From NCBI GenBank assembly GCA_028713555.1, contig JAQTOA010000002.1, positions 1 through 64,000 of the forward strand: 64,000 bases of DNA, given 5' to 3'. The stretch is from Sterolibacterium sp. (GTDB lineage Bacteria > Pseudomonadota > Gammaproteobacteria > Burkholderiales > Rhodocyclaceae). Made by a program: the position numbers and the translations under genes. Shown one piece after another: positions 7,053-36,991 of this stretch (positions are counted from its first letter, which is position 1; each line of letters begins with the position of its first letter). The notes below the pieces were generated by a model. It ran no database searches and was not told where the DNA came from. It saw nothing but the letters and a program-made list of their open reading frames with translations.

Positions 7053-8540
7053 ATGGAGAACAAGATGAAACAGTTTAAGGCCGGCATCGTGATTCGTGGT
7101 GAATGGATCCAGGATCATCTGGTCGAGTTTGGCGGGCGCAGCACCGGAATCACGTTTCTGTCGCCCGATCCAAAACAGTATCTGGGACGCCTGCCACTGC
7201 CGACACCGCAGGATATGAGCGACCTCTACAAGCTCAGCTTCGACGACGTCCTGGATTACATCGAACGTTTAGGCAGCCGTCTCAAGCTTTCCGATAATCC
7301 CTACCTGCAGGAAGCATTGGAGGCTTCCTGTCTGACCTCCTCGCTGACTCCGCCGCTGCTGCGTCAGGCGTACGAAACCCTGCCGTATTTGTTTAACCGC
7401 GAGGGAGCACGCGAAATCGCCGATAATACTATCGGCATCGGCCACCTCGAAGGCTGGGTCACCAAGACGCTGAACGATGGACGCAAGGTATCGATCCGCG
7501 CCTTCGGCGCGCGTGCTCTGCACATCATTGCCGGCAACAGCCCCGCCGTTGCGGGAGTAACGATTCTGCGCAACGCCATCACACGCAGCGACGCCATCAT
7601 CAAGAGTCCATCCAACGACCCCTTCACCGCGCTGGCAATCGCCCGCACCATGATCGACATGGATCCGAACCATCCGCTCACGCGCCACCTGTCGGTTGCC
7701 TACTGGAAGGGAGGCGACGAGGCACTGGAGCAAAAACTCTACCAGCCGCGCCATATCGAGAAGATCATCGCCTGGGGCGGTTTTGCTTCGGTCAAGCATG
7801 TCACCAAGTACATCCAACCCGGACTCGAACTGATCTCGCTGGACCCGAAGCGCAGCGTCAGCATCATCGGCCCGGAGGCATTCGCCGACGAAAATACGAT
7901 GCATGAAGTGGCGCTACGGCTGGCTACCGACATCGGCGCCGTAAATCAGGAGGGATGCATTTGTGCCCGCGTGGTCTACGTGCTGTCAGGAACCGACGAA
8001 GCAGGCTTGAAAAATATCAACCGCTTGGCTGACCTCACCTATACCGCCATGATCAATCTGCCGGAGGCGGTATCGACGACTCCCAAGGAGATGGGTCCGG
8101 AGTTGCGTTCGCTGGTCAATACCGCGCGCTTCAACGACGAATGGTTTCACGTTGTCGGCGGCGAGAAGGACGAAGGCGCCATCATCGCCTCGCAATTGCC
8201 GGAACCGGTCGATTTTGCCAGCCAGTTGGCAAACCGCGTCGCCAATCTGGTGCCAGTCGACGACATCGAGGAAGTCTGCGCAGTGGTCGATGCCTACACA
8301 CAAACAGTCGGTGTCTACCCAGAAAGCCTCAAGCACGCCTTGCGCGATCGACTGGCTTTGTACGGCGCCCAGCGTTTCACCTCGCTCGGCTATGCCGCGT
8401 ATCTGACGCTCGCTACGCCGCAGGATGCCATCGAATCGACCCGCGAGTTGTGCAAGTGGGTGGTGTGCGAAGACTGCGATCCCGCCGTCACGCCACCCCT
8501 GTGGGAGGGTGGCGAAATGTTCAAAGGTATCGCTGGGTAG
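7053..8540 (+). CDS. LuxC-like acyl-CoA reductase
   Basis: 495 aa; 'HIIAGNSPAVAGVTILRNAITRSDAIIKSPSNDPFTALAIARTM' and 'QEGCICARVVYV' typical of the LuxC/acyl-CoA reductase family; starts 8 bp after the LuxE-like stop. Confidence 0.75.
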   Translation: MENKMKQFKAGIVIRGEWIQDHLVEFGGRSTGITFLSPDPKQYLGRLPLPTPQDMSDLYKLSFDDVLDYIERLGSRLKLSDNPYLQEALEASCLTSSLTPPLLRQAYETLPYLFNREGAREIADNTIGIGHLEGWVTKTLNDGRKVSIRAFGARALHIIAGNSPAVAGVTILRNAITRSDAIIKSPSNDPFTALAIARTMIDMDPNHPLTRHLSVAYWKGGDEALEQKLYQPRHIEKIIAWGGFASVKHVTKYIQPGLELISLDPKRSVSIIGPEAFADENTMHEVALRLATDIGAVNQEGCICARVVYVLSGTDEAGLKNINRLADLTYTAMINLPEAVSTTPKEMGPELRSLVNTARFNDEWFHVVGGEKDEGAIIASQLPEPVDFASQLANRVANLVPVDDIEEVCAVVDAYTQTVGVYPESLKHALRDRLALYGAQRFTSLGYAAYLTLATPQDAIESTRELCKWVVCEDCDPAVTPPLWEGGEMFKGIAG

Positions 8541-20261: not shown

Positions 20262-21593
20262 TCAGTCGTCGCCCTTTCTCTGTATGCCGTAGCGTTTCAT
20301 TCTTTCCCACATGTTCTTGCGACTGATGCCCAGGGTTTCGGCAGCGTGCGTGACGTGGCCATTGTGAGCGGCGAGCACGCGTGATATGTATTGCCGTTCG
20401 AAGTTGTTCAGGTGCTCAGCCAGGGTTTCGTTGGTTGCGGGCAGTGCCAAAGGCATTTCTTCAAACAACGACTCGGGAAGTAATTGACGTTTCTCGCTGA
20501 GCACGCAAGCCCGCTCGAGTGCATGCTTCAATTCACGAACATTTCCAGGCCAGACATTATCCAGCATCAAACGCTCAAGCTTTGCCGACATGAATCGAGG
20601 CGCACCGCCTCGCACCGCCGCTTCCTCTTCGAGAAATTGTCTGGCAAGCCAAAGAATGTCTTCCTTGCGGTCGCGCAGTGGCGGTATGTACAAATGAACC
20701 ACGTTGATGCGGTAATACAAATCCTCGCGGAACTCTCTGTTCTCCACCATTTGCTTCAGATCGCGATGGGTGGCGCAGATCAGTCGCAGACTGACCTGCA
20801 GGGGATGCTCGCCGCCGATCCGGGTAATACACCGCTCCTGGATAGCTCGCAACAGACGAATCTGCATCGACTGCGACATGTCGCCGACTTCATCGAGGAG
20901 CAGAGTGCCGCCGTTGGCTTGCTCGAACACTCCCTTGTGCATTCTTACGGCTCCAGTGAAAGCCCCTTTTTCGAAGCCAAACAACTCGGCTTCGAGAAGG
21001 CTATCGGCAAAGGCGCCGCAATTCACCGCCACAAAGGGGCGTTCGACATCCTTGTTGCCGCGCAGGTGCAATTCACGCGCCACCATCTCTTTGCCGACCC
21101 CCGATTCACCACTGATCAGCACGTTGCTAGTGCTGCCGCCAATTTTATCCAGCATGGATTCGAGCGTGCGCATTGCTGGAGAAATGCCGAGTTTTGGTTG
21201 CCGGTCTCGTGCCATCGGTGCCGTCACCAGGGAACCAATTTTTTCCAGCAAGGTTTCGATATCGAAAGGCTTCTTAATGTAGTCGGCAGCGCCAAGCTTG
21301 AGCAGACGAACCGCCTGGTCGATTTCGCCGTAACCGGTAATGAACAGGTAGGGGGGCAGCGGTACGGCTTCTTCGAGCAGCGCCATGTAGAGCTTTTCGC
21401 CCGACATGTCGGGCAAACGGATGTCGCTGATGACTACATCGAACTGGCGCCGCGGCAAGGTGAGCAGCGCCTCGCGGCCAGTACGAAACCAGGTGCAATC
21501 GTAGTTCTCAAGCTCGAAACGCTCGACCAGCGCGTCGCCGACGATGTCGTCGTCTTCAATCAGGCAAAGATGCAGCTTGGCGGCTACGCTCAT
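20262..21593 (-). CDS. Sigma54-dependent response regulator (AioR/ArxR-like bEBP)
   Basis: Start MSVAAKLHLCLIEDDDIVG at 21593; Walker A 'GESGVGKE', 'GAFTGA', C-terminal Fis HTH 'VTHAAETLGISRKNMWERMKRYGIQ'. Confidence 0.88.
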   Translation of the reverse strand: MSVAAKLHLCLIEDDDIVGDALVERFELENYDCTWFRTGREALLTLPRRQFDVVISDIRLPDMSGEKLYMALLEEAVPLPPYLFITGYGEIDQAVRLLKLGAADYIKKPFDIETLLEKIGSLVTAPMARDRQPKLGISPAMRTLESMLDKIGGSTSNVLISGESGVGKEMVARELHLRGNKDVERPFVAVNCGAFADSLLEAELFGFEKGAFTGAVRMHKGVFEQANGGTLLLDEVGDMSQSMQIRLLRAIQERCITRIGGEHPLQVSLRLICATHRDLKQMVENREFREDLYYRINVVHLYIPPLRDRKEDILWLARQFLEEEAAVRGGAPRFMSAKLERLMLDNVWPGNVRELKHALERACVLSEKRQLLPESLFEEMPLALPATNETLAEHLNNFERQYISRVLAAHNGHVTHAAETLGISRKNMWERMKRYGIQRKGDD

Positions 21594-23053
21594 GACAAAG
21601 TTTTGAGCGGCAAGTTGACTGAGAACCGGGTCATGCTTTCCCCCTCTCGCATGGCACTGTGCACGGTAATGTTGCCCCCCAACTGTTTGACGATCTGATA
21701 GCAGACCCAAAGTCCGAGGCCCCGACCCGTTTCGCCGGCATTGATGAATGGCTCGAACAGATGCTCGGTCTGGGACTCGGTCAACATCTTGCCGCCATTG
21801 ACGATTTCGAAAGACAAGGTTTCGTCTAACTGTGCAATATTGACTTGCACGGCGCCGCCCTCGTCGGTTGCCTGAACAGCATTGAGAATCAGGTTGATCA
21901 ACACCTGTCGTACCAGAGTAGAAGGCAATGGTACAGATATTTCCAGATCGCTCTGCCAAGTCACGCTCACACTGCGCTTGTGCGCCTGGGGGGCAATCAG
22001 GGTGCGCAAATCGTCGACGTCTTGGGGTGAGAGGTCGCGGCTGTTAACCTTCGCTTCGACCAACAGCGCGGCTACGGTCTCCTTGATTTGGGTAAGTCCT
22101 CTTTCCAGCAAGTTCAAGGTCCGCGTGGTGCGGGCATCGGGTTCGCCGTGATGACGCAGGGTATTAATCGAGGTCAGCATGCCGAGTAAGGGATTGTTGA
22201 TTTCGTGAGCGATGCCGGCAGCCAGCCGGCCCAGTGCCACCAAGCGTTCCGAATGAATGACTTCCCGCTCGATCAGCGTTTTCTCGCGTAATTGCTGAAG
22301 GGTTCTGTTGTAGGCATGGAACAGGCGCCCTAGTTCATCCTGATAATCGTAGATTTGTGTCGGTAACTCGGCTGGCAGGCTACGTCCGAGCTGCTCCATG
22401 CGTTCTGTCAGGCGCAGCAACGGCGTTGCGGTACGTTGCCCCCAGTACCAGTTGATCGGCAGCAATACCGAAAGAACCAGGAAGGTCACCCAGGCTGCTT
22501 TCTCGGCACTTTCGAGAAAGCGCGGCAACAGTATCTTCTTGGAGTAAATTTGTAGTAGCGTGCCTAGCCGCGTTTGTTCGTCGATGATCGGCGTGGCGAC
22601 AAACAAATAGTCCGATCCCTCCGGCTCGAATACGGCGGTGTCCTTGCCCAGGCCGGCGATGTCAGATGCAATGCCGGCATGCTCGGCCGACAATTGGCGA
22701 AAATCGGCGAGCATCGGCATTGTTTCCGGGCGTGTCGAGACATACACCTGCAACTTTGGATCGAGTACCAGCAAACTTTCCGCCCGCACCGGATTTTCCT
22801 GGGAGGCACCACGCAGTGGCGCCCTGATCAATTCGTAAGCGTGCCAAACATGATCCTGCAAAATTGCCGGCACCAGAGTATGCGCCATGGTTTCCCCTTG
22901 CGTCGTCGCATTGCGCAGCAGATCGCGTTCAAGATCGTGATAGGCGCCGAAGATCAGGGTGGAGGAAATGATCAGCGCCGTGGCGACGATCAGGAAACCT
23001 CCCCACAAAGGAATCTTGTAGCGAAAACTCAGGTTGAAGATGCCGCGCATCAT
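21590..23053 (-). CDS. Membrane sensor histidine kinase (AioS/ArxS-like by context)
   Basis: MMRGIFNLSFRYKIPLWGGFLIV..; 'LGRLAAGIAHEINNPLLGMLTSINTLRHH', 'GRGLGLWVCYQIVKQLGG'; overlaps flanking genes by ~4 bp. Confidence 0.85.
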   Translation of the reverse strand: MMRGIFNLSFRYKIPLWGGFLIVATALIISSTLIFGAYHDLERDLLRNATTQGETMAHTLVPAILQDHVWHAYELIRAPLRGASQENPVRAESLLVLDPKLQVYVSTRPETMPMLADFRQLSAEHAGIASDIAGLGKDTAVFEPEGSDYLFVATPIIDEQTRLGTLLQIYSKKILLPRFLESAEKAAWVTFLVLSVLLPINWYWGQRTATPLLRLTERMEQLGRSLPAELPTQIYDYQDELGRLFHAYNRTLQQLREKTLIEREVIHSERLVALGRLAAGIAHEINNPLLGMLTSINTLRHHGEPDARTTRTLNLLERGLTQIKETVAALLVEAKVNSRDLSPQDVDDLRTLIAPQAHKRSVSVTWQSDLEISVPLPSTLVRQVLINLILNAVQATDEGGAVQVNIAQLDETLSFEIVNGGKMLTESQTEHLFEPFINAGETGRGLGLWVCYQIVKQLGGNITVHSAMREGESMTRFSVNLPLKTLS

Positions 23054-23898
23054 TCCTCGCCAAACTCGCCCATCATCTTGGTGACCAACGCATAGAGCCT
23101 GGGATCGCCCGCGATAAAGCCATCCAGATTTAACCGCTGGAGAAGTGACTTGCCTTGGGGATCGGTGCTCATTGCCAGTAGCATCCCTTGCATGGCGGCA
23201 AAACTCTCCTTGGAAACAGATCGATGGGCGACGAAAGGAGGAAAGCCGTATTCGGGCGATTGATTCACCACCCAGGTGCGGCGCGTAATATCCGACTTGA
23301 CCTTGTTCAAACTGTCCCAGACAAAACTGTCCACCGAACCACCCTGCGCCAAGCCGTCTGCGACGGCCTCGATCAGCTTCCGGTGAGAATAGGTGAAAAA
23401 TGTGCGGCTGAAAAACCTTCCCGGATCTTCTCCCGCCATCCGCAGTTGATAGCGTGGAACAAGATAACCGGTGTTGGAATAGGGGTCTGAGTAGGCAAAG
23501 ATCTTGCCTCGAAGTTCCAGCAAACTGTTGGCATGAGGCAATTGCGCCGGAACGATCAGGTAGGCGCGGTAGTACGGACGTCCCTGGAACACCGGTACGG
23601 CCAGCAGGCGAACCTGCTCGCGCAAATGAACGTAGGGGTAGTCGCAGATCCAGGCGAAGTCGATTTTTTCCAGTCGCAGCAAATCCATGGTTTCGCGATA
23701 GCTGTCGCGTTGCAGGAATTGGACCCGCTGCAGCAACTTGGCTTCCATATACTGACGCCACGCTTCCAGCGTGCCGTGCTGGTCGTGCAGAAAAGCCGGC
23801 GTCAGACCGATACGGACTGGACGCCCGGGAACCAAGGCCAGCGCCGGCGTCAGCGCCAGGCTGGCACAGGCGCCGAGAAACAGTCGGCGTGTCGGCAT
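23050..23898 (-). CDS. PhnD/AioX-like periplasmic oxyanion-binding protein
   Basis: 'LRLEKIDFAWICDYPYVHL', 'GKIFAYSDPYSNTGYLVPRYQL', 'SVDSFVWDSLNKVK'; signal peptide MPTRRLFLGACASLALTPALA. Confidence 0.82.
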   Translation of the reverse strand: MPTRRLFLGACASLALTPALALVPGRPVRIGLTPAFLHDQHGTLEAWRQYMEAKLLQRVQFLQRDSYRETMDLLRLEKIDFAWICDYPYVHLREQVRLLAVPVFQGRPYYRAYLIVPAQLPHANSLLELRGKIFAYSDPYSNTGYLVPRYQLRMAGEDPGRFFSRTFFTYSHRKLIEAVADGLAQGGSVDSFVWDSLNKVKSDITRRTWVVNQSPEYGFPPFVAHRSVSKESFAAMQGMLLAMSTDPQGKSLLQRLNLDGFIAGDPRLYALVTKMMGEFGEE

Positions 23899-23917: not shown

Positions 23918-23937
23918 TTGTTACCTTTCGGTAGCAA
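23918..23937. promoter_or_regulatory. Palindrome copy 1: TTGTTACC-TTTC-GGTAGCAA
   Basis: Direct reading; 20 bp upstream of PhnD-like start codon. Confidence 0.8.
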
Positions 23938-23969
23938 GTTACCGTCGCATCGGCGTTACCTTTGGTTTT

Positions 23970-23989
23970 ATGCTACCTGAAGGTAGCAA
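23970..23989. promoter_or_regulatory. Palindrome copy 2: ATGCTACC-TGAA-GGTAGCAA
   Basis: Direct reading; same consensus. Confidence 0.8.
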
Positions 23990-24010
23990 TTATGAGCTGA
24001 AATCCAGTTT

Positions 24011-24030
24011 TTGCTACCTTAAGGTAGCGA
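24011..24030. promoter_or_regulatory. Palindrome copy 3: TTGCTACC-TTAA-GGTAGCGA
   Basis: Direct reading; same consensus. Confidence 0.8.
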
Positions 24031-24107
24031 TTTATTGCATGCGTCCAGTGAATTGATGCTTCATGCATCAATCATGCCTTCGCAGCGCTTGCCCGGAGAC
24101 TGCCTGT

Positions 24108-24123
24108 TGGCGCGCTAACAGCC
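24108..24123 (+). promoter_or_regulatory. Weak candidate sigma54 -24/-12 element (TGGCGCGCTAACAGCC)
   Basis: GG-N10-GC spacing is met, but TTGC is CAGC; lies between the palindromes and arrA. Confidence 0.3.
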
Positions 24124-24270
24124 GTGAAGTGGCGAATAAATCTGCCCCATGGCCTGCTTTTTGCAGGAAGAGTTCGGGAATGGGGTGGCACCTATCGCCC
24201 GCGAAAACTTCAAGAGCATTGTCGAAAACGAGTTCCAAATTTTGATTTTGTATAAAGAGGAGTCCTCCAT

Positions 24271-26817
24271 ATGAAACTGACGAGACGGGAATTTCTTACG
24301 GCCTCGGTTGCCACGGGCGCATTGGCTGCTGCGGGCGGTCTGGCTAGCGGGTTGGCCATGGCGGCGCCGAAAACCAGTGCCTTGGCCGTGCGTAATGCAC
24401 AGGCCGCCGGCCCGGCCAAAGGCAGTTGGGTGGCCAGCACTTGCCAAGGCTGCACCCAATGGTGCGCGATCCAGATCTTCGTCGAAGAGGGCCGCGCGGT
24501 ACGCGTGCGCGGCAATGCGCTTTCCAAGTGCAACCATGGTTATGTCTGTCCGCGCGGCCACCTGATCCCGCAGCAAACCTACGATCCGGACCGCATCAAG
24601 GTGCCGATGAAGCGCACCAATCCCCTCAAGGGCCGCGGCATCGATCCGAAGTTCGTCCCGATCACCTGGGACGAGGCGATCAACATCGTCGCCGACAAGA
24701 TGATCGAGTTGCGCACAGCCGGCGAACCCGAGAAGCTGCTCTATCTGCGCGGCCGCTATTCGAACACCTCCACCGAACTGCTCTATGGCACGCTGCCCAG
24801 GGTCTTTGGCACTGGCAACTACTTCTCGCACAGCGCCATCTGCGCCGAGGCCGAGAAAATGGGCCCGGGCATGACGCAAGGTTTCGCTGGCTACCGTGAC
24901 TACGACCTCGAGAAGACCAACTGCCTGGTGCTTTGGGGTACCGACCCGCTGGCCTCCAATCGGCAAGTACCGAACACGATTCGCCGCTTCGGCGAGATTC
25001 TCGCGCGCGGCAAGGTGATCGCGGTCGATCCGCGCCTGTCTAATGTTGCGGCCAAGGCCCACGAATGGCTTCCGGTCAAACCCGGCACCGACGGCGCGCT
25101 GGCCGGCGCCATCGCCCACGTAATTCTCACCGAAGGCCTGTGGAACAAGGAGTTCGTCGGCGACTTCAAGGAGGGCAAGAACCTCTTCGTCGCCGGCAAG
25201 GAAGTCTCGGCGGACGCCTTCGCCGAAAAAGAAACCTCCGGCCTCGTCAAGTGGTGGAACCTCGAGCTCAAGGACCGCACCGCGGCCTTTGGCGAGAAGG
25301 AATCCGGTATCCCCGCCGCGCAGATCGTGCGCGTCGCCCGCGCCATGGGCAAGGCCGCACCCAAGACCGCCGTCTGGATGGGCCCCGGCGCCGCGATGTG
25401 GCCGCGTGGCACCTATGCCGCAATGGCGGTGTACGCGCTGAATGGCTTGCTGGGTTCGATCGATGTCGAAGGCGGCGTCTGGGAAAGCGCCAGTAGTCCC
25501 CATCTGGCAAAGTTCCCCAGCATCGACAAGTTCATCGATGAAGTGGCGAAGAAAGGCTACAAGGGGCACGCGACCAGCAACCGCGGCCACAAGGACATGC
25601 CGGGCTTCATGACCGCTTCGATCAACAACGTGCCCAACGAACTGTTGAAGAAACCCGACGCGATCAAGGTGGTGCTTTCCACTTGGAGCAACTTCAACCA
25701 TTCGGCCACCGGCGCCGACCGCTGGAACCAGGCGATGGCCAAGGTGCCCTTCTTCGCCCACATGGTAACCAATGCCTCGGAACTGACCCAGTTCGCCGAC
25801 ATCGTGCTGCCCGCAACCCATAATACCTCCGAGGGTTGGTCGATCGTCACCAACATGTCCAACGGCTATGCCTACGCCTCGATCCAGCAGAACCCGATCA
25901 AGCGCGTGTTCGACACCAAGCAGGAAGAAACCGAAGTCATGTGGCTGCTGGCGCAGAAGTTGAAAGCCAAGGGCTTCCCCAATCTGGCCGATTACTACGA
26001 TACGATCAAGGATCCCGAGACCGGCAAGTCGGCGACCAGCGAGCTGGAATTTGCCGAGTTCGCCGCCAAGTTCACCAGCGCGCCGATCTGGGATGGCAAG
26101 GAAGTGCCCAAAGGCGACGAGCCGATCAAGGGCTGGGGCGAGTTCAAAGCCAAGGGTATGTTCCACGGCCCGCGCTACACCCTCAAGAAAAACTGGGGCG
26201 GCAAGTTCAAGACCGAGACCAAGAAGTTCGAGTTCTACAGCGAAACGCTGAAGAAGAAACTGGCCGAGCACGCCAAGAAGAACGAGACCACCACCGACGA
26301 TGTCCTCACCGTCAGCGGCTACACCGCGCGCGGCGATCTTGCCTTCGTGCCGCATTACGAGGTGCCCAAGCGCCATGGCAGTTTCGAGGAATACCCGTTC
26401 ACCTTTGTAGACTACAAGTCGCGCCTGAACCGCGAGGGCCGTTCGCAGAACTTGCCTTGGTACAACGAGTTCAAAAAGGTCGATCCGGGCGATGTTTCCT
26501 GGAACGACGTGCTGAGGATGAACCCGGCCGACGGCGCCAAGCTGGGCCTGAAGACGGGCGACAAGGTGAAGATCACCTCGCCGACGGGAGCCATCGTCGT
26601 CGATCTCAGGTTGTGGGAAGGCGTGCGCCCCGGCACGGTGAGCAAGTGCTACGGCCAGGGACACTGGGCCTATGGCCGCGTTGCCGCCAAGGACTACGCC
26701 AAGGCGGAGCCGCGCGGCGGCAACAACAACGAGATCCTGGTCGACGACTACGATCGCTTGAGCGGCGCCACGGCCCGCAATGGCGGGTTCGTCGGCGTCA
26801 AGATCGAGAAAGCCTGA
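24271..26817 (+). CDS. arrA: Respiratory arsenate reductase catalytic subunit ArrA (Mo-bisMGD, Tat-exported)
   Basis: 848 aa; Tat signal RREFLTASV; 'CQGCTQWCAIQIFVEEG..CNHGYVCPRGH'; 'DRIKVPMKRTNPLKGRGIDPKFVPITWDEA', 'RGRY' motif, 'SHSAICAEAEKMGPGMTQGFAGYRDYDL', 'WGTDPLASNRQVP' closely resemble known ArrA. Confidence 0.9.
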   Translation: MKLTRREFLTASVATGALAAAGGLASGLAMAAPKTSALAVRNAQAAGPAKGSWVASTCQGCTQWCAIQIFVEEGRAVRVRGNALSKCNHGYVCPRGHLIPQQTYDPDRIKVPMKRTNPLKGRGIDPKFVPITWDEAINIVADKMIELRTAGEPEKLLYLRGRYSNTSTELLYGTLPRVFGTGNYFSHSAICAEAEKMGPGMTQGFAGYRDYDLEKTNCLVLWGTDPLASNRQVPNTIRRFGEILARGKVIAVDPRLSNVAAKAHEWLPVKPGTDGALAGAIAHVILTEGLWNKEFVGDFKEGKNLFVAGKEVSADAFAEKETSGLVKWWNLELKDRTAAFGEKESGIPAAQIVRVARAMGKAAPKTAVWMGPGAAMWPRGTYAAMAVYALNGLLGSIDVEGGVWESASSPHLAKFPSIDKFIDEVAKKGYKGHATSNRGHKDMPGFMTASINNVPNELLKKPDAIKVVLSTWSNFNHSATGADRWNQAMAKVPFFAHMVTNASELTQFADIVLPATHNTSEGWSIVTNMSNGYAYASIQQNPIKRVFDTKQEETEVMWLLAQKLKAKGFPNLADYYDTIKDPETGKSATSELEFAEFAAKFTSAPIWDGKEVPKGDEPIKGWGEFKAKGMFHGPRYTLKKNWGGKFKTETKKFEFYSETLKKKLAEHAKKNETTTDDVLTVSGYTARGDLAFVPHYEVPKRHGSFEEYPFTFVDYKSRLNREGRSQNLPWYNEFKKVDPGDVSWNDVLRMNPADGAKLGLKTGDKVKITSPTGAIVVDLRLWEGVRPGTVSKCYGQGHWAYGRVAAKDYAKAEPRGGNNNEILVDDYDRLSGATARNGGFVGVKIEKA

Positions 26818-26848: not shown

Positions 26849-27619
26849 ATGCCTAAATATGGAATGGTCATCGACCTTCAGAAATGTGTTGGCTGCGGAA
26901 CTTGCGCACTGGCCTGCAAAGCCGAAAACAACACCCGCAACCGTGCCGACGGTCAGAGCCACAATTTTGCCGACTTCCTGATGAAGACCGAAGGGGTCTT
27001 TCCGAAAGCGGTGCAGACGGCGATGCCGGTGCTCTGCAACCACTGCACCGACGCGCCCTGCGTCAAGAACTGTCCGGTCGAACCGAAGGCGATGTTCAAG
27101 ACACCGGAAGGCATCACCATGCACGACAACGAGCGCTGCATCGGCTGTCGCATGTGCCAGAACTCATGTCCTTACAGCCACGCCGAACTCGACAACACCA
27201 GCCTCAGCGGCGGCAGCTACAGCGTGATCAGCTTCAACGCCAAGGGTAAAGATACTCAGCCCTTCTGGACCGACAAGACCGAAATGATTCCAGGGTGCAC
27301 CGCTTCCGGGGCCGAGACCGCCAAGAAAGCCGGCGCAGAGACGCCTGCTTTCAACGCGTTTGCCGGAGGGGATGTCAAGCCGATTCGCCGGGCAGGAGTG
27401 GTCGAGAAATGTACCTTGTGCTATCACCGCATCAGCAACGGCCTGCAGCCGGCCTGCGTCGAGGCTTGCCCGGCCAAGGCGCGCATCTTCGGCGACCAGG
27501 CCGATCCGCAAGCGGAAATCGCGAAAGTGCTTAAGGCGCAGAAGCCGTTCCGCTTGCAGGAAAACAAGAAGACCCGCCCGAACGTATCTTACGTCGGGAA
27601 ATACAGCGCCAGGGCCTGA
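26849..27619 (+). CDS. arrB: Arsenate reductase iron-sulfur subunit ArrB
   Basis: 256 aa; several 4Fe-4S motifs (CVGCGTCALAC, CNHCTDAPCVKNCP, CIGCRMCQNSCPY, CTLCYHR..CVEACP). Confidence 0.9.
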   Translation: MPKYGMVIDLQKCVGCGTCALACKAENNTRNRADGQSHNFADFLMKTEGVFPKAVQTAMPVLCNHCTDAPCVKNCPVEPKAMFKTPEGITMHDNERCIGCRMCQNSCPYSHAELDNTSLSGGSYSVISFNAKGKDTQPFWTDKTEMIPGCTASGAETAKKAGAETPAFNAFAGGDVKPIRRAGVVEKCTLCYHRISNGLQPACVEACPAKARIFGDQADPQAEIAKVLKAQKPFRLQENKKTRPNVSYVGKYSARA

Positions 27620-27692
27620 TCTTAGGGCGGTTTGTTTAAACTGGGGGCGGATCAGTCTGCCCCCTTTCCAATTCAGGAACCCGAACATCAAA

Positions 27693-28319
27693 ATGCCAAA
27701 CTACGACCTCGACAAGGGACGCGCCCGCGAAGACCTCTGCCGTTATCTGGCGGCCTGCTATTACCAGCCGGGCCCAGAATTCTCGGAAGAAAAAGTGTTC
27801 GATTCGATGCTCGCTGCCGCGACTTGCCTCCATCCGGACCTCGCCGCTTGCGCACGCCGGCTGGGCGAGGAATTTTCCGCGGAAAGCGCGGAGGACCTGC
27901 TGCTCGATTACACCCGGCTTTTCCTCGGCCCCAACCATATCATCGCCAAGCCCTACGGCTCGGTATGGCTGGAACAGCAAGAGACCCTGATGGGGGAATC
28001 GACGCTGGCGATGCTGGCGCTATACAAGGAAGGCGGCTTCGAGATGGACGAGACATTCCGCGAACTGCCCGACCACATCGCCGCCGAGCTGGAGTTTCTT
28101 TACTTGCTGATCTTCCGCGAAAACGAAGCGCACCACCAGGGCAAGCTGGAAGCGCAAGAGGCCAAGGCCGCGCTGCGCAAGCGTTTTCTCGACGAACATC
28201 TCGGCCGCTGGGTCGGACCCTTCACGGCAGCCGTCAAGGACGGCGCACAAAGCAATTATTACCGGCAGCTTGCCGAACTCACCGACAGATTCATCAACAT
28301 GGAAGCCAACAAAGACTGA
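27693..28319 (+). CDS. arrD: TorD/DmsD-family maturation chaperone (ArrD)
   Basis: ATG at 27693; 'EDLLLDYTRLFLGPNHIIAKPYGSVWLE' and 'LPDHIAAELEFLYLLIF' typical of TorD family; directly after arrB. Confidence 0.85.
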   Translation: MPNYDLDKGRAREDLCRYLAACYYQPGPEFSEEKVFDSMLAAATCLHPDLAACARRLGEEFSAESAEDLLLDYTRLFLGPNHIIAKPYGSVWLEQQETLMGESTLAMLALYKEGGFEMDETFRELPDHIAAELEFLYLLIFRENEAHHQGKLEAQEAKAALRKRFLDEHLGRWVGPFTAAVKDGAQSNYYRQLAELTDRFINMEANKD

Positions 28320-28349: not shown

Positions 28350-28562
28350 ATGGGAACCATGAGTATCTGGCATTGGCTAGTTGTCTTGGTTATTGTCATG
28401 CTGGTGTTTGGCACCAAGAAACTGCGGTCTGTCGGCGCCGACCTCGGTGGCGCGGTCAAGGGTTTCAAGGAAGGCATGGCCGAGGCTGCGGTGGAACATG
28501 GTGCCGGACAAGCTTCTCCTGAGACTGTTCGTCAGTCGATCGAAGCCAAACTCCGTCAATGA
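28350..28562 (+). CDS. tatA: Twin-arginine translocase component TatA
   Basis: 70 aa; '[40 protein letters not shown]'. Confidence 0.88.
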
Positions 28563-29338
28563 CCGTGCAGTTGTCGGAAGCATCTTGCACCAGCTCAGGT
28601 GCGGCAAATTCCGTGCTTTTGGCGTTCACGAGCAAGACTGCACGCCAAATACGCGGCTATGGCGAATGCTTTCCTTGCGCATTGCTATTGGCGGAAGCAC
28701 CTCCTGAACAGCATGCTGATTTCGATGCGCTGGTTCATGACCAAGACTTCGGGCATTCCGAAGTTCTATACCGTGCCACGGCACCGGTCGATGCGGTGCA
28801 TTTCATCCAGATGGGCGCCGTAAAACTGGTGAGGACTGGGCCTACTGGCGAGCAGCGCATTGTCAGAGTGCTCAAGACCGGAGACTCCGCCGGAACTGAG
28901 TCAATCTTCTCGCAAACTTACGAACACACGGCAATCGCGCTTGGTGATGTGCGTGTCTGTAGCATCCCTGTAGCCTTGTTCCTCAAGTTAGTCGCCGGAT
29001 CCGGGCGAACACAAATGTGGTTGCTACAGAAATCGCTGACGGCACTAAACGATGTAGAAACCTGGCTTTTACAGTTGGCAGGTGGCTCAGTATCATCCCG
29101 CGTTCGTATTGCACGGTTGATGTTGAAGCTATGTGCTGACAACGAAGGCCACATCCACCGGTTGCCTCTCAAGGAAATGGGCGCCATCGTTGGCTTGGTG
29201 GAGGAAACGGTGTGCCGGGTTATTTCCGAATTCGACCGCCAGGGAATTATCGCTAAAGATGGTAGCGGTAGCGTTTTTGGCCAGCGCTATTTCCGCGGCA
29301 ATATACCGGCGCTGAAGAAAATCGCCCATGAACCTTGA
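28559..29338 (+). CDS. Crp/Fnr family transcriptional regulator
   Basis: cNMP-binding fold region, C-terminal HTH '[30 protein letters not shown]'; ATGA overlap with tatA. Confidence 0.8.
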
Positions 29339-32675: not shown

Positions 32676-33611
32676 ATGAAATTGACGAAGCGGTGGTTAA
32701 TTCCGGTATCGGCGGTCCTGGTGGCAGCGGCGCTAGCGGCACTGTATTGGTTCGGGCGGGGAGAGACGATTTCCCGCCAAGTAAATATGGCTGAGGTGGC
32801 GAAGAGCGAGACTGGGCCACGGCCGGAAGCAGTGTTGCGGATAGCGGTGGCTTCGATGATCTCCCCCAAGGAGACCGAAAACAGCTATTTCGACTTGCTG
32901 CGTCTTGTCGGTCGGCATGTGGGTCATGAGGTAAGCTTCGTTCAGCGCAAGACCTATGCCGAAGTCAATGAACTGCTGGAGCGCCGCGAGATCGATCTGG
33001 CCTTTGTATGCTCCGGCCCTTACGTCGATGGGCACGAGCGCTTCGGCATGGAGTTGCTCGCTGTGCCGGTAGTGCATGGCGGCATGGTTTACCATTCCTA
33101 TTTCATCGTTCGCCGCGATGCCCCCATCAAGGATTTGGAGGGGTTGCGCGGAAGACGTTTCGCCTTCACCGATCCCAACTCCAACACCGGCTATCTAGTA
33201 CCTACCTACGTGCTGAGCCGCCGGGGCGAAACTCCCAAGAGCTTCTTTGGCGAAACGTTCTTCACCAACAGCCACGACAACTCCATCAAAGCGGTGGCAG
33301 ACGGCTTGGCTGACGGTGCCGCCGTGGATTCGCTGATCTGGGAGTACATCAACGCCACCAAGCCGGCCGATACGGCGCGCACCCGTATCATCGACAAGTC
33401 GCCGCCCTACGGCATCCCTCCGATTGTGATACATCCGGCGCTAAACCCGGAATTCAAACAACAGTTGCGCGAGGTGTTTCTGCATCTGCATGAAGATCCT
33501 CAAGCCACTGCCTTGCTGAAGAACATCCAGATCGAGCGCTTCGCCGTGGGCAACGATGCCATGTACGACTCTGTACGCCAAATGCAGCACGAGTTGAAGG
33601 AGAAGCGGTGA
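32676..33611 (+). CDS. PhnD/AioX-like substrate-binding protein (second copy)
   Basis: 'LERREIDLAFVCSGPYVDGH', 'GRRFAFTDPNSNTGYLVPTYVLSRRG', 'AAVDSLIWEYINATKP'. Confidence 0.82.
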   Translation: MKLTKRWLIPVSAVLVAAALAALYWFGRGETISRQVNMAEVAKSETGPRPEAVLRIAVASMISPKETENSYFDLLRLVGRHVGHEVSFVQRKTYAEVNELLERREIDLAFVCSGPYVDGHERFGMELLAVPVVHGGMVYHSYFIVRRDAPIKDLEGLRGRRFAFTDPNSNTGYLVPTYVLSRRGETPKSFFGETFFTNSHDNSIKAVADGLADGAAVDSLIWEYINATKPADTARTRIIDKSPPYGIPPIVIHPALNPEFKQQLREVFLHLHEDPQATALLKNIQIERFAVGNDAMYDSVRQMQHELKEKR

Positions 33612-36600
33612 TTCGTGTCGATCTGCGCACGCGGATTTTCCTGCGAGCACTAGGGCTGTTGACGGTACTGATCCTTGCAGTAACTCTCGCCTCGGGCGCG
33701 TCGAGCGTAATCCATCGGCGTGAGTACGCGCAGACCATCTACCAGGGCCAGGTCCGGACGCTAATTTTTCAGATGACGGAGCTCGTGCTGTGGGACGACC
33801 GGGTGGCGCTGGACAAGCTCATCACAGAGGTGGTGGAGAAAGATAGTACGCTAGGTTACGTCTTTCTGGAACGCGGCGGCAAGCCCTACGTGTACACGTT
33901 CTCAGCCGGGGTGCCCAAGGCGCTGCTGGGCCTTGGGCCGTTCTCCATGGAGCAGGCAACGATGACCCCTTTTCGGGATCAGGAGGGGGGGCAATGGCTC
34001 GATATTGCCCAAGCGGTGCCAGCCGATGCGGCAGTGCTGCACTTGGGAGTCAACGTCGATGTGCTGTTCTGGCAAGCCTTGGTCGGCTTGCGCGGGGTAT
34101 TGGTGGCCAGCGGTGCCGCCTTGCTGGCCGGCGCGCTGTTTGCCTGGTATATCGCCAGAGCCACCACTCGGGAGGTAACGGCAGATGAGGAGGCTTTGCG
34201 CGAGAGCATGGCATTTCAGAACTCGCTGCTCGATGCGATGCCCATTCCGGTTTTCTATAAGGATCGGGAAGGGCGATACCTGGGATGCAACAGGGCTTAC
34301 GAGACATTTTTTGGCGCAACAAATGATCAACTGATCGGCAAGACCGTATTCGATATCAGTCCGCGGGAGCTTGCGGAAATCTATCGCGTCAAGGACAACG
34401 AGCTGTTCGAGAGCGGAGGGATACAGCAATACGAGTCCCAAGTAAAGAACACGCATGGCGTATTGCGCGATGTCATCTTCAACAAAGCGGTTTTCTTTGA
34501 TGCCCGGGGAGCCGTCGGCGGCTTGATCGGGGCGATTCTCGACATCACCGAGCGCAAGCGGGCGGAGGAAGCGTTTCAGCAGGTGAATCGTCGCAATCAA
34601 ATGATCCTGGAATCGGCCGGCGAAGGCATATTTGGTTTGGATAGCGAGGCGCGTATCGACTTCATCAACCCGGCGGCACTCACCATTCTGGGTTTTAAAA
34701 AGGACGAATTGCTGGGGCAGGACTCCCACGCCGCTTTGCATCACAGCAAGCCGGACGGCAGTTCATATCGGCAAGAAGATTGCCCAATACACCATTCAGT
34801 GCTCAGCGAACTCGGGGTTCGGGGGCTGGAGGAAACGTTTTGGCGCAAGGACGGCTCCCCGCTGCCGGTGCTGTTTTCCAGCATGCCGATCAAGGAAGAT
34901 GGCAAAGTCATTGGCGCGGTGGTCACGTTCCAGGACATTACCGAACTCAAACAGAAGGAAATGGCGCTGGAGGAGAGCGAAGAGCGTCTGCATACGGCCA
35001 CGGAAACGGCGCGCGATGCCATGGTCATTATTGAAGGCGAGCGCGGCACCATCACTGTGTGGAATCCTGCGGCCGAAACGATTTTCGGCCATACGCGGGC
35101 CGAGGCACTCGGTCAGTCCTTGCATGAATTGCTGGCGCCGTCCCGCTTCCGTGAGACGGCACAGCGCGGTTTGTCGCATTTCTCCAGCAGCGGCGAAGGT
35201 GGCGCGGTAGGCAAGACTCTGGAACTGGTGGCCTTGCGCAAGGATGGGACGGAATTCCCCATTGAGCTTTCGCTTTCTGCCATGCAGATATGCGGGAAAT
35301 GGCACGCCACCGGCTTTGTCCGCGACATCACCGAACGCAAGCGCATGGAGCAGGAACGCCTGACCCATCTTCAGTTTGTCGAGAGCCTGGATCGGATCAA
35401 TCGGGCCATACAGGAAACAAATGACCTTGAGAAGACGCTGAGCGATGTGCTCGGCGCAGTGCTGGCGATCTTCGATTGCGACCGGGCGTGGCTTTTCTAT
35501 CCGTGCGACCCGGATGCGCCATCGTTCCGGGTTCCCATGGAAATTGCCAAGCCTGAATATCCTGGCGCCGGGATACTAAATGTGGATGTACCGATGCCCC
35601 CCGACATGGCCCAGAATCTGCGGGAGGCTCTGGAATCTGCCGACCCGGTGACTTATATCGTCGGGACAGACAGACCCATTAACAAGGTGAGTGCCGAGCA
35701 ATTTGGCGTCAAGTCGATGATGATGGCTGCTCTTTATCCCCAGTCGGGCAAGGCCTGGGCGTTCGGCCTTCACCAATGCGCTTACCCGCGAGTCTGGACA
35801 GCGGAAGACAAGAGGCTGTTCCAGGAGATCAGCAGGCGCTTGGGCGATAGCCTGACCGGCCTGTTGTCTCATCGCGACTTGCAGGAAAGCGAGGCAAAGT
35901 ATCGTCGTATCGTGGACACCGCCAACGAGGGGATATGGATGCTCGGGCCGGACACCATGACCACCTTCGTCAACGCCCGGATGGCCGGAATGCTCGGCTA
36001 TTCCGGCGAAGAGATGATCGGCCGGCCGGTGACGGACTTCATGTTCGGGGAGGATGCGTCCGACCATCTCAGGAAAATGGAGCATCGTCGTCAGGGAATA
36101 TCGGATAACTATGAACGACGTTACCGCCGCAAAGATGGGCAGGCAGTTTGGACTCTGGCTTCTGCGGCTCCCATCTTCGACGGTAAGCATCAGTTCATGG
36201 GTTCCTTTGCCATGTTCACCGACATCACCGAGCGCAAACAAGCGGAAGAAAGGCTCAAGCGCGCCAACACCGAACTGGAGCGGCAGGCCATGGCTCTTAC
36301 CCGCACCAACGCCGATCTGCAACGATTTGCCGAAGTGACGGCGCACCACCTGAAGGAACCGGCGCGGCGCCTGGCTACCTATGCGATGCGTCTAACCAAG
36401 CAATTGGGCGATCGGCTCGACGACGCCGAAGCCAGGCTGTCCCTCGAATTCATCAACCAGCAGGCGCGGCAACAACAAGCCCTGCTGCGCGACGTCGAAC
36501 GTTATCTGGCGTCCGATCAGCCGCGCGGGGAGATCGAGTCGATCGATGCTTACCAGACAGTTGCCAGGATACTGGCGCGATTGAAGAATCGGATCCGCGA

Positions 36601-36991
36601 AGCCGGCGCCGAAATCTCGCTGGGTAATCTGCCGCCCTCACGCATCGACTTACCGCGACTGGACGACGCGTTCTCGATTGCACTGGATAACGCCCTGATT
36701 CACGGGCGCTGCGCGCACCCCTTGTGCATCGGGATCGAGGGCGAACACCAAGGTGGCAAGGTGCGCTACAGCATCAGCGACAACGGCCCCGGCGTGGAAG
36801 CGCAGTATCGCGAGAGGGTGTTTCGTGTGTTCGAGCGATTGACATCAGACGATCATGTGATCGGAACCGGTATCGGGCTGGCGATCCTGCGACGAATCGC
36901 CGAGAGTTGCGACGGGCGCGCCTGGATCGAAGAAACGCCAGGCGGCGGTTGCCGCGTCCTGTTTGAATTACCTATTGGAGAATCGCATTGA
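33608..36991 (+). CDS. Multi-PAS/GAF sensor histidine kinase
   Basis: 1127 aa; N-terminal TM, repeated PAS/PAC ('DITERK'), GAF-like segment, 'FAEVTAHHLKEPARRL', 'GTGIGLAILRRIAESCDGR'; ATGA-type overlap with PhnD-like gene. Confidence 0.88.
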   Translation: MIRVDLRTRIFLRALGLLTVLILAVTLASGASSVIHRREYAQTIYQGQVRTLIFQMTELVLWDDRVALDKLITEVVEKDSTLGYVFLERGGKPYVYTFSAGVPKALLGLGPFSMEQATMTPFRDQEGGQWLDIAQAVPADAAVLHLGVNVDVLFWQALVGLRGVLVASGAALLAGALFAWYIARATTREVTADEEALRESMAFQNSLLDAMPIPVFYKDREGRYLGCNRAYETFFGATNDQLIGKTVFDISPRELAEIYRVKDNELFESGGIQQYESQVKNTHGVLRDVIFNKAVFFDARGAVGGLIGAILDITERKRAEEAFQQVNRRNQMILESAGEGIFGLDSEARIDFINPAALTILGFKKDELLGQDSHAALHHSKPDGSSYRQEDCPIHHSVLSELGVRGLEETFWRKDGSPLPVLFSSMPIKEDGKVIGAVVTFQDITELKQKEMALEESEERLHTATETARDAMVIIEGERGTITVWNPAAETIFGHTRAEALGQSLHELLAPSRFRETAQRGLSHFSSSGEGGAVGKTLELVALRKDGTEFPIELSLSAMQICGKWHATGFVRDITERKRMEQERLTHLQFVESLDRINRAIQETNDLEKTLSDVLGAVLAIFDCDRAWLFYPCDPDAPSFRVPMEIAKPEYPGAGILNVDVPMPPDMAQNLREALESADPVTYIVGTDRPINKVSAEQFGVKSMMMAALYPQSGKAWAFGLHQCAYPRVWTAEDKRLFQEISRRLGDSLTGLLSHRDLQESEAKYRRIVDTANEGIWMLGPDTMTTFVNARMAGMLGYSGEEMIGRPVTDFMFGEDASDHLRKMEHRRQGISDNYERRYRRKDGQAVWTLASAAPIFDGKHQFMGSFAMFTDITERKQAEERLKRANTELERQAMALTRTNADLQRFAEVTAHHLKEPARRLATYAMRLTKQLGDRLDDAEARLSLEFINQQARQQQALLRDVERYLASDQPRGEIESIDAYQTVARILARLKNRIREAGAEISLGNLPPSRIDLPRLDDAFSIALDNALIHGRCAHPLCIGIEGEHQGGKVRYSISDNGPGVEAQYRERVFRVFERLTSDDHVIGTGIGLAILRRIAESCDGRAWIEETPGGGCRVLFELPIGESH

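Follow-up and report, generated by a model that had tools for sequence, protein, structure and literature searches.

The three palindromes at 23918-24030 of the window (the whole 64,000-nucleotide stretch of DNA analysed here) very probably constitute an operator (enhancer) array for the response regulator encoded at 20262-21593. The array is flanked by arrA on one side and on the other by a divergently oriented arrX-arrS-arrR module (hereafter XSR, with products X, S and R), and comparison of sequences points to operators of the AioR/ArxR/ArrR type, given the co-occurrence of the sites with XSR, their presence in arx-type loci and their matches to the AioR consensus. AioR provides a known precedent for this type of operator; new here are the GCTACC half-site and the foreign XSR module. 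The features concerned are as follows.

20262-21593, minus strand: arrR-like response regulator (R), sigma54 activator and proposed binder of the sites (PF00072, PF00158, PF02954)
21590-23053, minus strand: arrS-like sensor histidine kinase (S; HAMP, HisKA and HATPase domains)
23050-23898, minus strand: arrX-like periplasmic oxyanion-binding sensor of PhnD fold (X; Pfam PF12974)
23918-23937, no strand: putative operator site 1 (core 23920-23935, GTTACCTTTCGGTAGC)
23970-23989, no strand: putative operator site 2 (core 23972-23987, GCTACCTGAAGGTAGC), 52 bp from site 1
24011-24030, no strand: putative operator site 3 (core 24013-24028, GCTACCTTAAGGTAGC), 41 bp from site 2
24064-24080, minus strand: candidate sigma54 promoter of the arrXSR operon (AAGGCATGATTGATGCA)
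24149-24165, plus strand: candidate sigma54 -24/-12 promoter of arrA (ATGGCCTGCTTTTTGCA; GG and GC 10 nt apart)
24271-26817, plus strand: arrA, respiratory arsenate reductase catalytic subunit (RGRY motif; NCBIfam ArrA)
26849-27619, plus strand: arrB, iron-sulfur subunit (NCBIfam ArrB 232.7 bits, cut-off 450)
27549-28319, plus strand: TorD-like chaperone (Pfam PF02613)
28559-29338: Crp/Fnr-type regulator in the same cluster, right of the TorD-like chaperone and followed by moaA

The palindromic array and its neighbouring genes

A pattern scan with TTGCTACCNNNNGGTAGCAA matched at 23918-23937, 23970-23989 and 24011-24030, with one mismatch per site, and each dyad is also one mismatch from TTGCTACCN4GGTAGCAA. 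The scan thus confirmed the three near-identical dyads, spaced 52 and 41 bp, that the first-pass annotation had placed at 23918, 23970 and 24011, and the distances it gave to the flanking genes are correct: the dyad cores start at -351, -299 and -258 relative to the arrA ATG (24271), and between site 1 and the arrX ATG (23898), some 20 bp further down, there is only the Shine-Dalgarno region. Its remark that no such dyads occur elsewhere was borne out in both window and genome. No further TTGCTACCNNNNGGTAGCAA match was found in the window at up to 3 mismatches, and shuffled windows gave a mean of 0.20 matches and never three (0/100). The genome contains exactly three perfect copies of the 16-bp core GYTACCN4GGTARC, all at the arrA-XSR locus and none at unrelated loci, the sequence scanned being 3.07 Mb and 80% complete, so that sites in the absent part would go unseen. 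The next-best 20-mers elsewhere in the genome have 2 mismatches and differ in sequence. The dyads described as 20-bp palindromes are therefore real, but the conserved element is confined to the 16-bp core, an inverted repeat with 6-bp arms and a 4-bp spacer in all three sites; the outer TT/AA positions carry no information content among relatives.

The proposed binding protein R comprises receiver, AAA+ and Fis-type helix-turn-helix (HTH) domains. Its Pfam domains, together with GESGVGKE and GAFTGA in the translation, confirm its earlier description as a sigma54 enhancer-binding regulator with both motifs intact, and rpoN was found in the genome. Together the three genes form the X-S-R module that has been described at aio, arx and arr loci (PMC5908839). 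Among solved structures, X is closest to AioX (6esv, 179 bits), followed by ArrX (6x6b, 144 bits); reading off the alignment, six of the seven AioX pocket residues listed in PMC5908839 (Y88, C106, Y131, S161, S163, H192, D210) are identical in X, with Thr at S163. The pocket gives no ligand identity, since ArrX and AioX share it yet differ in ligand (PMC5908839). The nearest solved structure to the arrA product is ArrA itself (PDB 6cz7, E = 3e-263, RGRY aligned); its NCBIfam ArrA score of 1000.8 bits is below the strict cut-off of 1600. ArrA proteins are recognized by their clade and an R/KGRY motif (PMC11283718), and the window protein, which has the motif, nests among Rhodocyclaceae ArrA, with 67-86% identity to 80 related loci, including Geobacter sp. 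OR-1. A search of plasmids for ArrA returned only an Arx-type locus. At 32676-36991 the window encodes another PhnD-fold binding protein (44% identity to X) and, after it, a large histidine kinase of PAS type; no GYTACC dyad lies nearby.

Conservation of the dyad and the variant half-site

Among the 80 related arrA loci with flanks that formed the comparison set, a dyad lies less than 600 bp from arrA in 26/29 loci with a nearby XSR and in 2/28 without one (Fisher p = 1e-10, a nominal value that overstates independence because the loci are related). In relatives, then, the dyad is kept, and it tracks the XSR module, not arrA as such. The XSR loci without a dyad inside 600 bp (L051, L052 and L083) have a site at -647 to -649, and one of the two exceptions without XSR (L093) has a diverged S-R pair. 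Across the class, a dyad precedes X in 94/117 XSR loci (a redundant count) versus 5/109 control stretches in the S gene; relatives also have a site at the position of site 1. The arx-type loci and other XSR loci carry the dyad too, many of them before X. In arrA loci with a divergent XSR it takes the form of an intergenic GTTAC[CG]-N4-GGTAAC, usually present twice close to arrX and once close to arrA. The co-occurrence, the position before X and the sigma54 promoter considered below all support the original proposal that these dyads are the upstream sites of the regulator.

Binding of the dyads by some other protein, with R acting elsewhere, is very improbable. The Crp/Fnr-family gene at 28559-29338 belongs to the same cluster, but the dyad is unlike the FNR box, TTGAT-N4-ATCAA. 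An ArsR-type or AioF-like repressor might also be considered, AioF (ArsR-type) being known to help control aioBA in Thiomonas (PMC7533571). Against any such candidate, the dyad tracks XSR even beside arx-type or other enzymes, nearly all arrA loci without XSR lack it, and the dyad family fits the AioR consensus. It is scarcely credible that the palindromes serve instead as RNA hairpins in the mRNA of arrXSR or arrA, be it as terminator or as leader structure, although site 3 drew a terminator-like flag and the sites follow the proposed XSR promoter and precede the start codon of X. Relatives keep the half-site letters, not pairing alone: across 152 of their sites, five of the six half-site positions hold at least 1.5 bits and the spacer nearly none, and it was on this letter conservation that the hairpin reading was rejected. 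There is no strong T-run, and arrays of two to three copies near whole helical turns suit DNA binding; spacings of 52 and 40-43 bp recur among relatives (samples that are not independent).

The operator of AioR in Agrobacterium tumefaciens GW4 (aioBA, mcp) is known from the footprint GTTCGGATTTCCGAAC, with a published consensus of GT[TC][AC][CG]...AAC (PMC5335332). Features shared with that operator are a 16-bp dyad of 6-N4-6 design with GT...AC ends, a location upstream of an arsenic oxidoreductase operon and a sigma54-type regulator from an XSR module, for which binding is here predicted; differences are the single copy in GW4 versus three in the window, and the enzyme, AioA versus ArrA. Distinct sites of relatives fit the AioR consensus exactly in 46/170 cases and with at most one mismatch in 120/170, versus 1, 3 and 4 mismatches for the window sites, which makes this one operator family, with the window off its consensus. 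By its letters, the window array is a variant of the AioR-type operator, not a canonical AioR site. In five of its six half-sites, C replaces the T of AioR at position 2, giving GCTACC versus the near-invariant GTTACC of relatives, which have T in both arms of 150/152 and 166/170 sites (two counts).

The nearest XSR relative, genome G908 (loci L161/L189; X 72%, S 72% and R N-terminus 77% identical), has three sites at the same 52/41-bp spacing, with C at position 2 in four of six arms. One C arm occurs in L155; the only site in L093 has C on both sides. The GC variant, being shared with G908 and present also in L155 and L093, is thus a feature of a lineage and not a sequencing slip. The recognition helix of R reads ISRKNMWERM in the window versus ISRKNLWEKM or ISRKNLWERM in GTTACC-type regulators (the contig with L189 ends within R, before the HTH), so that the change is not obviously explained by the nearly identical protein. 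Co-variation of the helix with GC half-sites was not supported: the sole residue change specific to the window is Leu to Met, and L155 and L093 keep Leu.

Published arxXSR/arxB2ABCD loci (PMC6549141, PMC6683785) likewise combine a divergent XSR module with a Mo-enzyme operon, and three arx loci (L013-L015) have GTTACCN4GGTAAC, of the same dyad family, upstream of arxA-type genes; their enzyme differs, with about 35% identity to the window ArrA. At the time of those two reports it had yet to be demonstrated that ArxXSR controls arx. In the literature searched we found no published operator for arr or arx XSR modules, nor a demonstration that either system is controlled by its own module (PMC6549141 states so for arx). 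The betaproteobacterial arr loci (L018-L028, L031-L044, L076-L087) share with the window the gene order with divergent XSR, the dyad family and a sigma54 promoter upstream of arrA, and differ in having half-sites of the form GTTACC or GTTACG, one more site close to arrA and XSR proteins of other clades. The arrA-proximal site of most relatives is missing in the window, where the best 16-mer in 24032-24290 has 4 mismatches. The conserved box GTTACC-N4-GGTAAC could be used to predict which genes XSR modules control in bacteria that respire arsenate or arsenite. Elsewhere, L056 has a perfect GTTACCGAACGGTAAC at 7790-7805, 211 bp upstream of arrA, with no XSR in the fetched flank.

Candidate sigma54 promoters and proposed regulation

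The candidate promoter of arrA at 24149-24165, with its GG and GC 10 nt apart, lies downstream of the sites and is the only zero-mismatch match in the window to TGGCMYGN4TTGCW, a pattern loosened to fit. It scores 19.0 of 22 (shuffle p 0.016), in itself weak evidence since arrA loci without XSR sometimes score high too. At the matching place L189 has TTGGCCCGGTCTTTGCT, and conserved TGGCAYG-type sigma54 elements stand upstream of arrA in arr relatives. The two closest relatives of the module keep the candidate promoter facing XSR: over 1.6 Mb of fetched sequence, a scan for GGCAYRATTGATGC hit nothing but the region before X in the window, in L189/L161 and in L155/L111. No sigma70 promoter for XSR was found in the window. 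A perfect dyad, TTGATGC-N5-GCATCAA, at 24053-24071 (a single exact copy in the genome) was discarded as a functional palindrome; its symmetry is probably due to chance, since the left arm is not conserved in L189 and the right-hand portion is a piece of the conserved promoter of XSR.

Transcription is predicted to start near 24175 (arrA) and near 24054 (XSR). The site centres would then fall at about -248, -196 and -155 from the arrA start, and at about +34, +75 and +127 from that of XSR, in its leader. The former is the classic distance of an enhancer, and activation of arrA by R is on this ground likely. In the mechanism that we propose, X would bind an oxyanion, probably of arsenic, and signal through the kinase S; phosphorylated R would bind the 16-bp dyads, whose 52/41-bp spacing (5 and 4 helical turns) would set its oligomers on one face of the DNA; and its AAA+ domain would drive sigma54 polymerase at the arrA promoter (24149-24165), some 155-250 bp off. 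Through the second promoter (24064-24080, minus strand), which faces XSR, R would probably control its own operon too. We infer binding by R, the ligand of X, sigma54 dependence at this locus and the sign of autoregulation. In H. arsenicoxydans, expression of aox requires RpoN and AoxR (PMC2848651).

Control of XSR by R, of either sign, is likely from the arrangement of sites and promoter. The first-pass annotation had the regulator autoregulate its operon; the conserved sigma54 promoter facing XSR fits this, with a sign that may be positive or negative. The aioXSR genes are induced by arsenite in some strains and not in others (PMC7533571, PMC6011840); those of NT-26 do not respond to it (PMC6011840), so autoregulation need not follow from the presence of a site. 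Should R at these sites only repress XSR, by roadblock or promoter occlusion, arrA would have to be activated through another element. Here, as in Rhodoferax-type loci, site 1 abuts the Shine-Dalgarno region of X, a site falls within the start of X in Rhodocyclaceae-type loci, and the arrA-proximal site of relatives is wanting, all of which would suit a purely repressive role. That role is nonetheless most improbable: a sigma54 promoter lies between sites and arrA in the window, in L189 and in most arr relatives, and R retains the GAFTGA loop needed for sigma54 activation.

Origin of the regulatory module

The enzyme and its regulators have different affinities. The window ArrA falls among ArrA of Rhodocyclaceae type (100/100), and a tree constrained to place it with L065/L066/L074 is rejected (AU 2e-5). 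S and R together join L155, L065, L066 and L074 (100/100), and here too the constraint, in this case to the Rhodocyclaceae-type modules, is rejected (AU 4e-55). A genome of the same genus (G003; L017, L168) has arrA with an ordinary module and GTTAC-type sites. By phylogeny, the XSR module is thus a stranger to the arrA that it adjoins. Regulator and operators were apparently exchanged as a unit, with module and GCTACC half-site arriving jointly from another lineage of XSR; which way the transfer ran is something that we infer. The window thereby offers a natural test of regulator and operators moving as one cassette and drifting in sequence jointly. More speculatively, and less likely than not, the whole cassette (sensor, kinase, activator and three-site operator, its half-site altered) might have moved to arrA from the locus of another molybdoenzyme, thereby placing arsenate respiration under a sensor with another specificity, perhaps not for arsenate, and with an operator code that is insulated. 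The regulator had been called arsenic-responsive; an arsenic ligand is probable, but the nearest XSR modules sit by non-Arr enzymes, and the term should be read as an expectation.

Of the modules closest to that of the window, the one in L155 (4938-12000) adjoins a PhsA-like 778-aa oxidoreductase and the one in L189 (2266-4397) a TtrB-like iron-sulfur protein, neither of them Arr or Arx. In a Sulfuritalea MAG (L024, 1267-8001) the three-site region is present twice, beside arrX and beside arrA, the two being separated by a 5-kb stretch that codes for a large protein of PAS/GGDEF/EAL-like type and a smaller one. One Rhodocyclales MAG (JAPLQY01) has two complete arr loci (L018 and L020), each with its own XSR and sites.
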